Below are positions 47,730 to 56,210 of a stretch of 64,000 nucleotides of DNA, in pieces. Made by a program: the position numbers and the translations under genes. Source of the DNA: Cryomorphaceae bacterium. Lineage in GTDB: Bacteria > Bacteroidota > Bacteroidia > Flavobacteriales_D > Crocinitomicaceae. Position 1 is the first letter of the stretch; every line of letters begins with the position of its first letter. Location of the stretch: positions 21,165 through 85,164 of the forward strand of contig JAJTGF010000001.1 in assembly GCA_021299335.1 (NCBI GenBank), written 5' to 3'. Under the pieces are notes generated by a model that was not told the DNA's origin, searched no databases, and worked only from the letters and a program-made list of their open reading frames with translations.

Positions 47730-47803
47730 GCCGATGTAGCTCAGTTGGCCAGAGCAGCTGATTTGTAATCAGCTGGTCGGGGGTTCGAATCCCTCCATCG
47801 GCT
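47730..47803 (+). tRNA. tRNA-Thr (TGT)
   Basis: Acceptor GCCGATG/CATCGGC, anticodon arm CTGAT-TTGTAAT-CAG region, GGTTCGAATCC. Confidence 0.97.
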
Positions 47804-47811
47804 CTAATGTT

Positions 47812-47894
47812 GGGGAGATACTCAAGCGGCCAACGAGGGCAGACTGTAAATCTGCTGGTGTACACCTTCGCAGGTTCGAATCCTGCTCTCCCCA
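47812..47894 (+). tRNA. tRNA-Tyr (GTA)
   Basis: Acceptor GGGGAGA/TCTCCCC, anticodon loop CTGTAAA, long variable arm. Confidence 0.97.
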
Positions 47895-47915
47895 CAGAAA
47901 CTAACAAAAAAATAA

Positions 47916-47988
47916 GCGGGAGTAGCTCAGTTGGTAGAGCGTCAGCCTTCCAAGCTGAACGTCGCGAGTTCGAATCTCGTCTCCCGCT
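47916..47988 (+). tRNA. tRNA-Gly (TCC)
   Basis: Acceptor GCGGGAG/CTCCCGC, anticodon loop CTTCCAA. Confidence 0.97.
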
Positions 47989-48008
47989 CACGTTTTTTTC
48001 GTTTGAGC

Positions 48009-48080
48009 GCCGGTGTAGCTCAGGGGTAGAGCGCTTCCTTGGTAAGGAAGAGGTCACGAGTTCAAATCTCGTCATTGGCT
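48009..48080 (+). tRNA. tRNA-Thr (GGT)
   Basis: Acceptor GCCGGTG/CATTGGC (two G-U pairs), anticodon arm CTTCC-TTGGTAA-GGAAG. Confidence 0.95.
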
Positions 48081-48171
48081 CAATGTAAAATTGCATTTAA
48101 GTCCGTTGCGCGCTGCGCCTCGGACCTTTATGATAGATAAGTATATTATTAACTAAGTAACAAATACAAAA

Positions 48172-49359
48172 ATGGCTAAGGAAAATTTTGACCGTTCCAA
48201 ACCACACGTCAACATCGGTACCATCGGACACGTTGACCACGGTAAGACTACGTTGACTGCTGCAATTTCTAGCGTTCTTTCAAGCAAAGGATTGGCACAG
48301 GCTCGTGACTTCTCCTCAATTGATAACGCTCCTGAAGAAAAAGAGCGCGGTATCACCATCAACACATCTCACATCGAGTATGAAACTGCTAACCGTCACT
48401 ACGCGCACGTTGACTGTCCAGGTCACGCCGACTACGTAAAGAACATGGTTACAGGTGCTGCCCAAATGGACGGCGCAATCCTCGTTGTAGCTGCAACAGA
48501 CGGACCAATGCCACAAACACGTGAGCACATCCTTCTTGGTCGCCAGGTTGGTGTTCCTCGCATGGTTGTTTTCATGAACAAAGTGGACATGGTAGACGAT
48601 CCAGAATTATTAGAATTGGTTGAAATGGAAGTACGTGAATTGCTTTCTTTCTACAAGTACGACGGTGACAACGCTCCTGTTATCAAAGGTTCTGCACTTG
48701 GTGCATTGAACGGTGAGGCACAGTGGGTTGCAACTGTTGAAGAATTGATGGATGCAGTTGACTCTTACATCGAACTTCCTCCACGTGATGTTGATAAACC
48801 ATTCTTGATGCCAGTTGAAGACGTATTCACGATTACAGGTCGTGGTACAGTAGCAACAGGACGTATCGAAACAGGTGTAATCAACTCTGGTGAGCCAGTT
48901 GAAATCCTTGGTATGGGTGAAGTTAAATTGACTTCTACTGTAACAGGTGTTGAGATGTTCCGCAAAATCCTTGACCGTGGTGAAGCTGGTGACAACGTTG
49001 GTTTGTTGCTTCGCGGTATTGAAAAATCACAAATCAAGCGTGGAATGGTTATCTGTAAGCCAGGTTCAACTACACCACACATCGAATTTAAAGCTGAGAT
49101 CTACGTATTGAAGAAAGAAGAAGGTGGTCGCCACACTCCTTTCCACAACAAATACCGTCCTCAGTTCTATTTCCGTACAACTGACGTAACTGGTGAGATC
49201 TTCCTTAGCGATGGTCGCGAGATGGTTATGCCAGGTGACAACGTATCTATTAATGTGAAGTTGATCGTACCAGTTGCGATGGACAAAGGTCTTCGTTTCG
49301 CTATCCGCGAAGGTGGCCGTACAGTAGGTGCGGGTCAGGTTACAGAAATCGTAGCTTAA
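48172..49359 (+). CDS. tuf: Elongation factor Tu
   Basis: [34 protein letters not shown]; full length. Confidence 0.99.
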
Positions 49360-49382
49360 GATTCTACCAAAAGTTTCAAACA

Positions 49383-49407
49383 AGGGGAGTTAACAGCTCC
49401 CCTTTTT
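49383..49407 (+). terminator. Intrinsic terminator/attenuator between tuf and tRNA-Trp
   Basis: aggggag-N7-ctcccct followed by ttttt; 7-bp perfect stem. Confidence 0.75.
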
Positions 49408-49409
49408 AA

Positions 49410-49482
49410 ACGGGTGTAGCTCAGCTGGTAGAGTAGTGGTCTCCAAAACCATTGGTCGTGGGTTCGAATCCTACCGCCCGTG
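49410..49482 (+). tRNA. tRNA-Trp (CCA)
   Basis: Acceptor ACGGGTG/CGCCCGT, anticodon loop CTCCAAA, GGTTCGAATCC. Confidence 0.96.
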
Positions 49483-51536: not shown

Positions 51537-52058
51537 ATGACAAGAGAAGAAAAAGCACAGTACATCAGCGATTTAGCAGCACAATTGTCTGCGAGTAGCG
51601 TTGTGTATTTGACAGACACTGCAGATTTGACCGTTGAGGCTGTAAACACACTCCGCAGAAGATGTTTTCAATCAAACATCTCCATGCGCGTAGTAAAGAA
51701 TGCTTTGCTTGAAAAAGCAATGGATCAAGTAGAAGGTAAAGATTTTGGTGCGTTACGCGACGTTCTCAAAGGATCTACCTCTGTCATGATCTCCGAAGTT
51801 GCAAATGCTCCTGCAAAATTGATTGCAGATTTCCGCAAGAAGTCTCCAAAACCACTTTTGAAAGGTGCTTACATCGACGAAGCAATCTTTATTGGTGACG
51901 AACAACTTAGTGCATTAGAATCACTCAAGAGCAAAGAAGAGCTCATCGGTGACCTCATTGCCTTGTTGCAAAGCCCAGCGAAAAATGTATTGTCTGGTCT
52001 TCAAGGTGCTGGTGGCAAAATTGCTGGTATCCTTAAAACGCTCGAAGAAAGAGCATAA
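51537..52058 (+). CDS. rplJ: 50S ribosomal protein L10
   Basis: MTREEKAQYISDLAAQLSASSVVYLTDTADLTVEAVNTLRR; synteny. Confidence 0.97.
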   Translation: MTREEKAQYISDLAAQLSASSVVYLTDTADLTVEAVNTLRRRCFQSNISMRVVKNALLEKAMDQVEGKDFGALRDVLKGSTSVMISEVANAPAKLIADFRKKSPKPLLKGAYIDEAIFIGDEQLSALESLKSKEELIGDLIALLQSPAKNVLSGLQGAGGKIAGILKTLEERA

Positions 52059-52094: not shown

Positions 52095-52388
52095 ATGGCT
52101 GATTTGAAGCAAATTGCAGAAACGTTGGTAAACCTTACAGTAAAAGAAGTAAGTGAGTTGGCAACAATTATGAAAGACGAGTATGGCATCGAGCCTGCTG
52201 CTGCGGCACCAGTAATGGTAGCTGGTGGTGGAGCTGCTGCTGGTGGCGAAGCTGCTGCTGAGAAAACTGAGTTTGATGTGATCCTCAAAGCTGGTGGTCC
52301 TAACAAACTTGCAGTAGTTAAACTTGTAAAAGAATTGACTGGTAATGGTTTGAAAGAATCTAAAGACCAACAGAGTACAAAACATTAA
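52095..52388 (+). CDS. rplL: 50S ribosomal protein L7/L12, C-terminally truncated
   Basis: N-terminal domain, Ala/Gly hinge and [36 protein letters not shown] are normal, then QQSTKH* replaces the conserved C-terminus. Confidence 0.9.
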
Positions 52389-52400
52389 AAAAAACAAGCC

Positions 52401-55400
52401 TTGGCAACAACAACTAATTCAACCAGAATTAATTTTGCTTCAAGCAAAAACCAATTTGAATATCCAGATTTCTTGGAAATTCAATTAAAGTCTTTTCAAG
52501 AATTTTTCCAGTTGGAAACAACCCCGGAAAACCGCGAAAGTGAAGGACTTTTCAAAGTGTTTGCTGAAAATTTCCCCATTACGGATACCCGCAATCAATT
52601 TGTTCTAGAATTCCTGGATTATTTCATTGATCCACCTCGCTACACCATCGAAGAGTGTATCGAAAGAGGTCTCACTTACAGTGTTCCTCTTAAAGCAAAA
52701 CTGAAACTGTATTGTACTGATCCTGAGCACGAGGACTTCGAGACCATCGTTCAGGATGTTTACTTGGGTACAATTCCTTATATGACACCGAAAGGTTCTT
52801 TTGTGGTCAATGGTGCCGAGCGCGTCATTGTATCCCAATTGCACCGTTCACCTGGTGTTTTCTTTGGACAGTCTCGCCACGCAAATGGCACTAAACTCTA
52901 TTCGGCCCGTATCATTCCTTTCAAAGGTTCATGGATCGAATTCGCTACGGATATCAACAATATCATGTATGCGTACATTGACCGTAAAAAGAAATTACCA
53001 GTTACCACGCTTTTCCGTGCCATTGGCTATGAAACAGACCGCGATATCCTCGATATCTTTGGTTTGGCAGACGAAGTCAAGGTAAATAAAGCAAACCTTA
53101 AAAAACTCATCGGTCGTCGTTTGGCTGCCAGAGTTCTCAAGACCTGGATCGAAGATTTCGTCGACGAAGATACCGGAGAAGTTGTCTCTATTGAGCGCAA
53201 CGAGGTCATTCTCGATCGCGAACTTTTGATCGGCGAGGAGCACCTCGATGCCATCATGGACTCAGGAGCTAAGTCATTGATTTTGCACAAAGAAGATGGC
53301 AATTCAACTGACTACACCATCATTTACAACACCCTACAAAAAGATACATCCAATTCTGAAAAAGAAGCGGTTGAACACATCTATCGTCAATTGCGTAACG
53401 CAGATCCACCAGACTACGAAACAGCAAAAGGTGTATTTGAGAAATTATTCTTCTCTGATGCTCGCTACGACCTAGGTGAAGTAGGACGTTACCGTCTGAA
53501 CAAAAAACTCAATCTCGATACTGCAGAAGAATCGCGCGTCTTGACTAAAAACGACATCATCTGCATCATCAAGTACTTGATTGAATTGATCAACTCAAAG
53601 GCGGATATCGATGATATCGACCACTTGTCAAACCGTCGTGTACGTACCGTTGGTGAGCAACTTTACGCTCAATTTGGCGTAGGTTTGGCGCGTATGGCCC
53701 GCACCATCCGCGAGCGCATGAACGTTCGTGACAACGAAGTCTTTACACCAATTGACCTCATCAATGCCAAGACTTTGTCTTCGGTCATTAACTCTTTCTT
53801 TGGAACCAACCAGCTATCTCAGTTCATGGACCAAACCAACCCGCTCTCAGAGGTGACGCACAAACGTCGTCTTTCTGCACTCGGGCCAGGCGGTCTATCG
53901 CGTGAGCGCGCAGGTTTTGAGGTTCGTGACGTTCACTACACGCACTACGGTCGTTTGTGTACCATCGAAACACCTGAAGGTCCAAACATCGGACTCATCT
54001 CTTCACTTTGTGTATTTGCAAAAGTCAATAAACTTGGTTTCATTGAAACACCATACCGTCGTGTAGACAACGGTCGCGTCGTTTTCGAAGAGAGCCCAAT
54101 TTATTTGGCTGCCGAAGAAGAAGATTCAAAAACAATTGCACAGGCAAACGCTAAAATCGACGAGAAAGGTAATTTCCTATCTGATTTAGTAAAAGCACGC
54201 TACGAAGGTGACTTCCCAGTTGTTGCCCCTGGTGACCTCAGCCTCATGGACGTTGGTGCCAACCAAATTGCATCAATTGCGGCTTCATCCATTCCTTTCC
54301 TCGAGCACGACGATGCCAACCGTGCACTCATGGGATCCAACATGCAGCGCCAAGCGGTGCCGCTTTTGCGTCCAAATGCACCTATCGTTGGTACCGGAAT
54401 CGAGCAACTCGTTGCTAGAGATTCGCGCGTTTTGATCAACGCAGAAGGATCCGGAACAGTTGAGTACGTCGATGCGAATGAAATCGTCATCCGCTATGAC
54501 TGGAACGACCAAGATAAACTCGTGAGCTTTGACAGCGAAGTAACGCGTTACTCGCTCACCAAATTCATGAAGACCAACCAAAGTACTTGTATCAACCTCA
54601 AGCCAATCGTTCAAAAAGGTGACCGCGTTGAAAGAGGACAAGTTCTTTGTGAAGGTTATGCCACTCAATCAGGAGAGCTCGCACTCGGACAAAACCTCAA
54701 AGTAGCTTTCATGCCATGGAAGGGTTACAACTTCGAAGATGCGATTGTTATTTCTGAAAAAGTAGTTCGCGACGACATCTTTACCTCTATTCACATCGAT
54801 GAATATTCGTTAGAAGTACGCGACACCAAACGCGGTATGGAGGAACTCACTTCCGATATACCTAACGTATCCGAAGAAGCGACCAAAGACCTCGATGAAA
54901 ACGGACTCATCCGCATCGGTGCTGAAATCAAAGAAGGTGATATCCTTATCGGTAAAATCACACCAAAAGGTGAAACAGACCCATCTCCAGAAGAGAAACT
55001 TCTGCGCGCCATCTTCGGCGACAAAGCAGGTGATGTCAAAGATGCCTCACTCAAAGCAGGTCCTTCTTTACGCGGCGTTGTAATCGAGAAAAAACTCTTC
55101 TCAAGAGCAGTGAAAGACCGCAAGTCAAAATCGCAAGATAAGCCGGTACTCGAAGCTTTAGATGCTGACTATCAAAGAGATTTCGCAGTGCTTCGCGACA
55201 AACTTGTCGACAAATTATTGGTCATCCTCGGCGAACAGAAGTCTGCTGGTGTCTTCAATAACTTTAAAGAAGAGTTGATCAAAAAAGGCACTAAGTTTAG
55301 CAACAAAGCACTTAGTGCGCTAGATTACTCTATTGTCAATCCTTTGAACTGGACCGCTGACGCTGAAACCAATCAACTGATTTCTCGCGTGATCCACAAC

Positions 55401-56210
55401 TTCAACATCAAAGCCAACGACTTACTCGGTATCTACAAGCGCAAGAAATTCCACATTTCTGTCGGTGATGAACTCCCTGCCGGAATCGTGAAATTAGCGA
55501 AGGTTTATGTTGCCAAAAAACGCAAGTTGAAAGTCGGTGACAAGATGGCGGGTCGTCACGGTAACAAAGGTATTGTTGCCAATATCGTTCGTCAAGAAGA
55601 CATGCCGTTCCTCGAAGACGGAACGCCTGTCGATATCGTTCTCAATCCACTAGGGGTACCATCTCGTATGAACCTCGGTCAGATTTATGAAACCGTACTT
55701 GCATGGGCGGGTGAAAAACTTGGTGTCAAGTTTGCTACGCCAATTTTTGATGGTGCAAAACCAGAAGAAATCAACGAGTGGACAGACAAAGCTGGTGTGC
55801 CACGTTCAGGTAAAACTTACCTCTACGACGGCGGAACCGGTGAGCGTTTCCACCAACCTGCAACTGTCGGTATCATCTACATGTTGAAATTATCTCACAT
55901 GGTTGACGACAAAATGCACGCACGTTCAATCGGACCATACTCACTTATTACCCAACAACCTTTGGGTGGTAAGGCTCAGTTTGGTGGTCAGCGTTTTGGT
56001 GAGATGGAAGTTTGGGCATTGGAAGCATTTGGTGCAGCCAATATCCTTCAAGAAATCCTTACCGTGAAATCTGACGACGTCATGGGTCGTGCCAAGGCAT
56101 ATGAATCTATTGTAAAAGGCGACAACATTCCAGAACCAGGTATTCCTGAGTCCTTCAATGTATTGTTACACGAATTGCGTGGTTTGTGCCTTAACGTATC
56201 AATGGATTAA
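52401..56210 (+). CDS. rpoB: DNA-directed RNA polymerase subunit beta
   Basis: 1269-aa RpoB; only in-frame start near the conserved N-terminus is TTG 52401. Confidence 0.98.

Follow-up and report, generated by a model that had tools for sequence, protein, structure and literature searches.

Has a Crocinitomicaceae bacterium lost the second half of the GTPase-recruiting domain of its ribosomal protein bL12 (L7/L12, encoded by rplL), or has its draft genome lost the DNA that encodes it? The question arises in the window, the whole 64 kb stretch of DNA that was analysed, which belongs to a draft called G000 here. The gene order in the window is rplK-rplA-rplJ-rplL-rpoB-rpoC, as in the bL12 operon of other bacteria, and rplL as assembled encodes only 97 aa. 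Translational GTPases share the C-terminal domain of bL12 as their binding site (PMC10931766; PMC10602876), and a real loss of this domain is therefore expected to be very harmful. The features concerned are listed below.

51537..52058, + strand: rplJ (L10), intact, 99% identical to the copy in the genus relative G022
52095-52388, + strand: rplL open reading frame, 97 aa, followed by a 12 nt spacer before rpoB
52095..52367, + strand: rplL codons 1-91, which cover the N-terminal dimerisation domain, the hinge and ~32 positions at the start of the C-terminal domain
52367..52368, no strand: deletion junction, where 180 nt of the relatives are missing
52368..52388, + strand: apparent C-terminus QQSTKH and stop codon, formed by rpoB-leader bases
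52389..52400, + strand: last 12 nt of the rpoB leader, identical to the spacers of G022 and G011
52401..56210, + strand: rpoB, intact, 1269 aa, TTG start, 99% identical to G022 over its full length

The remaining part of rplL resembles the bL12 of bacteria such as E. coli (1rqu/1ctf) in its N-terminal dimerisation domain, its Ala/Gly hinge and the first half of its C-terminal domain. The Pfam dimerisation domain PF16320 is complete (E 1.5e-14, positions 3-46 of 48). Up to codon 91 the gene is 93-96% identical to its closest genus relatives, and the substitutions in 52095..52367 are mostly synonymous. The difference from known bL12 is that the final 35 residues of the C-terminal domain are absent as assembled, as seen in the alignment with E. 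coli L12; the Pfam GTPase-recruiting domain PF00542 is incomplete, covering positions 1-32 of 67 only. These results confirm the initial annotation, in which rplL was said to end at 52388 after losing about 35 C-terminal residues (approximately half of the domain), with the TTG of rpoB following 12 nt later at 52401 and the rest of the operon whole.

Five syntenic stretches of the genus (G022, G013, G011, G020 and G023) align along the operon, confirm the position of rplL between rplJ and rpoB, and show a single clean blastn gap at window 52367/52368. In these relatives the 180 nt contain the last 34-35 rplL codons (92-125 or 92-126), the stop codon and a 72 nt spacer with a hairpin. In the window, codon 91 (GAC), which ends at 52367, adjoins sequence that is found 73 nt past the rplL stop in the relatives. 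Thus the earlier proposal of a clean deletion covering the rplL tail and some spacer holds; its size, given as roughly 100 bp or more, is actually about 180 nt, and the removal of the hairpin goes beyond what had been claimed. As assembled, the junction reads ...TCTAAAGAC followed directly by CAACAGAGTAC..., with a microhomology of 0-1 nt and no Ns at the site. The residues QQSTKH are the conserved rpoB leader CAACAGAGTACAAAACATTAA translated as codons, and the same bases stand in the rplL-rpoB spacer of the relatives; judged by this comparison, QQSTKH is six codons of plain non-coding spacer, from upstream of rpoB, read through. The TTG start of rpoB is also found in the genus relatives, which read ..CCTTGGCAAC...

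Among 86 genomes of the genus, rplL was matched in 74, and 73 of these genes are full length (residues 1-124 or 1-125); only that of G000 ends at 92. No match was obtained in G008 and G016 only since the stretch with rplL and rpoB is absent from their drafts. Automatic reading of rplL at another 80 loci succeeded in 77 (3 were not parsed), and all of these encode 121-127 aa. The truncation is therefore shared by no relative, neither among the 74 genus genomes with rplL nor among the 77 further loci read, and the idea of a short rplL as a lineage feature fails. Besides its normal rplL, G004 has a 143-codon open frame with a second, partial match, at C7:33230-33355, to the beginning of the L12 C-terminal domain. 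Two differing full-length copies of rplL occur in G092 (C203:53-430 and C152:4744-5121), possibly a strain mixture or contamination.

The draft itself was then compared with its relatives at other loci, using 561 kb of G000 (the window included) and 1.19 Mb of G022. Over 295 kb of alignable sequence, 12 stretches of at least 30 nt are missing from G000 and none is extra. Two controls at equal divergence gave 2 such stretches over 194 kb, for G020 compared with G022, and none over 181 kb, for other genus loci compared with G022. Natural variation in intergenic DNA or tandem repeats accounts for some of the 12 losses; several are clean cuts inside conserved genes. Genes split between frames number 5 in G000; in the control pair there are none, whichever genome serves as reference. 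The losses inside genes and the short runs of Ns are the following.

C22:10451 (L167): 179 nt lost and frame broken in a membrane-protein gene, DedA-like by inspection only, which is whole in the other 14 genomes matched
C95:4330 (L184): 93 nt, or 31 residues, lost from a protein that is whole in 22 other genomes matched, from nine genera
C12:4126 (L137): 93 nt lost, gene start missing
C24:2793 (L169): 58 nt lost, frame lost
C24:7937 (L169): 58 nt lost at a gene end
C80:3605 (L181): 8 Ns in a pyruvate kinase gene (named by inspection), where relatives have ~41 nt
C60:12969 (L177): 9 Ns in a small-protein gene, frame broken

The N runs mark G000 as a scaffolded draft in which at least one gap is shorter than the DNA it stands for. 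The breaks inspected elsewhere in it are clean gaps or runs of Ns. Two further genes are frame-split relative to G022 by small breaks, at C22 near 7201 (L167) and C55 near 18050 (L176).

The truncation of rplL is very probably an error of draft assembly or scaffold joining, because clean in-gene gaps occur at unrelated loci of G000 and the relatives carry whole copies. The decisive evidence is the set of other clean deletions in unrelated conserved genes of G000 (179, 93, 93, 58 and 58 nt), together with the N gap. The draft would have been built by joining pieces over short unassembled gaps, which may be marked by Ns, sometimes of the wrong length, or by none. One such join would have fallen within rplL, where an unassembled piece of ~180 nt (the rplL tail and the terminator hairpin) would have been skipped and the flanking stretches butt-joined without Ns. 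We infer that assembler or scaffolder software produced these joins. Most likely, the organism has an ordinary L7/L12 of 125-126 aa, with the conserved hairpin spacer and then rpoB downstream of its gene, and the short rplL most likely does not represent a new kind of ribosome.

An assembly deletion was one of the alternatives offered in the initial annotation, and it is supported by the clean deletions that break other genes of G000 and by its short N gaps. The pattern resembles the scaffold gaps and misjoins of draft metagenome-assembled genomes: segments are missing cleanly, short runs of Ns interrupt genes, the relatives are intact and no selective pattern is seen. It differs in that the rplL junction itself has no Ns. 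A literature search on scaffolding gap errors gave no paper. Several points stand against an assembly error. Apart from the missing DNA nothing marks the rplL site, which has no Ns, and the rest of the window contains no broken gene; the 0-1 nt shared at the junction does not fit a repeat collapse; some of the losses against G022 are natural; and between G000 and G020 the gains and losses over 140 kb of comparable sequence are balanced, with 2 stretches extra and 2 missing, the rplL deletion being among the latter. If the error is accepted, silent in-gene deletions without Ns in G000 can pass for gene truncation or gene loss, and here one of them affects a gene essential to the ribosome.

Several simpler accounts of the junction were rejected. 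Repeat collapse does not apply because no direct repeat is present and at most 1 nt is shared; what remains as the source of the junction is a chimeric read, a butt-join or a real molecule. Genome decay was set aside since no broken genes were found elsewhere in the 64 kb window, and a general loss of hairpins since the hairpin of the rpoC terminator is intact there. An overlap of exactly 1 nt, counted at four junctions, was weighed as a possible mark of end-joining software and dropped, the count being uncertain due to divergence from the relatives.

A real molecule is the strongest rival to an assembly error, though an unlikely one. A recent deletion, strongly harmful or lethal unless complemented, would be carried by some, or most, of the cells in the population sampled, and the assembler would have captured it. 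The clean junction with 0-1 nt of microhomology is of the kind seen in non-homologous deletions. Apart from it the flanks are perfect and the surrounding reading frames intact, and the upstream fragment and rpoB leader are free of further changes, as expected of a very recent event. However, the deletion would remove part of the common binding site of translational GTPases (PMC10931766), it is common to no relative, and the other clean in-gene deletions of G000 would all need to be real as well. If true, it would challenge the indispensability of the L12 C-terminal domain.

The initial annotation had also allowed for a complete rplL elsewhere in the genome, besides a truncated operon copy. Neither a second rplL nor a stray tail was found in the 1.8 Mb, 107-contig, 81.6%-complete assembly of G000, whereas the same queries gave matches in G013, G020 and G022 (E 1e-20 to 1e-79). 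Since ~18% of the genome is missing from this draft, absence is no proof; the relatives, however, have a single full-length rplL in almost all of the 86 genus genomes, and a hidden second copy is considered highly improbable.

The remaining suggestion, a very unusual but functional stalk in which half a C-terminal domain would suffice for this lineage to recruit translation factors, is scarcely credible, for its only point is that the frame stays open for 97 aa, while the added QQSTKH is spacer sequence, the conserved hairpin is deleted too, L10, L11 and EF-Tu are unchanged (99%, 100% and 98-100% identical to G022), and no genus relative with rplL has such a form. Nothing supports a functional short L12, and the sequences of the partner genes give no sign of co-adaptation to a short stalk. 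Equally hard to believe is a living Crocinitomicaceae population that has no rplL-rpoB attenuator and no L12 but one cut off halfway through its C-terminal domain, with factor recruitment and RNA polymerase expression both altered.

The DNA missing at 52367/52368 includes a structure that is conserved in the genus and its neighbours. The rplL-rpoB spacer of the relatives (L007, L003 and L005, for example) bears a terminator-like hairpin and a T run, such as ACAGGAAAGGCACCGC..GCGGGTGCCTTGTCCTGTTTTTT, with a folding energy of -32 kcal/mol and a z of -4.6. Its core AGGC..GCCT is invariant and its base CAGG..CCTG nearly so. Across 31 distinct sequences, pairing is kept in 95% of cells, and changes on both sides occur in 7 of 15 pairs; the covariation score is 0.26, versus 0.12 when shuffled and at most 0.10 in slid versions. 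No Rfam match was obtained at the gathering threshold. In E. coli, an attenuator is located at the same place, between rplL and rpoB (PMC4670729), and the hairpin of the relatives is therefore probably an attenuator as well. The two are alike in that the same spacer has a strong G+C hairpin with a T run behind it; the difference is that the hairpin described here is known from sequence and covariation alone, and is deleted in the window.

Upstream of the ribosomal protein operon, at window 47730-49482, five tRNA genes surround tuf, four before it and one after it, which is an ordinary arrangement.
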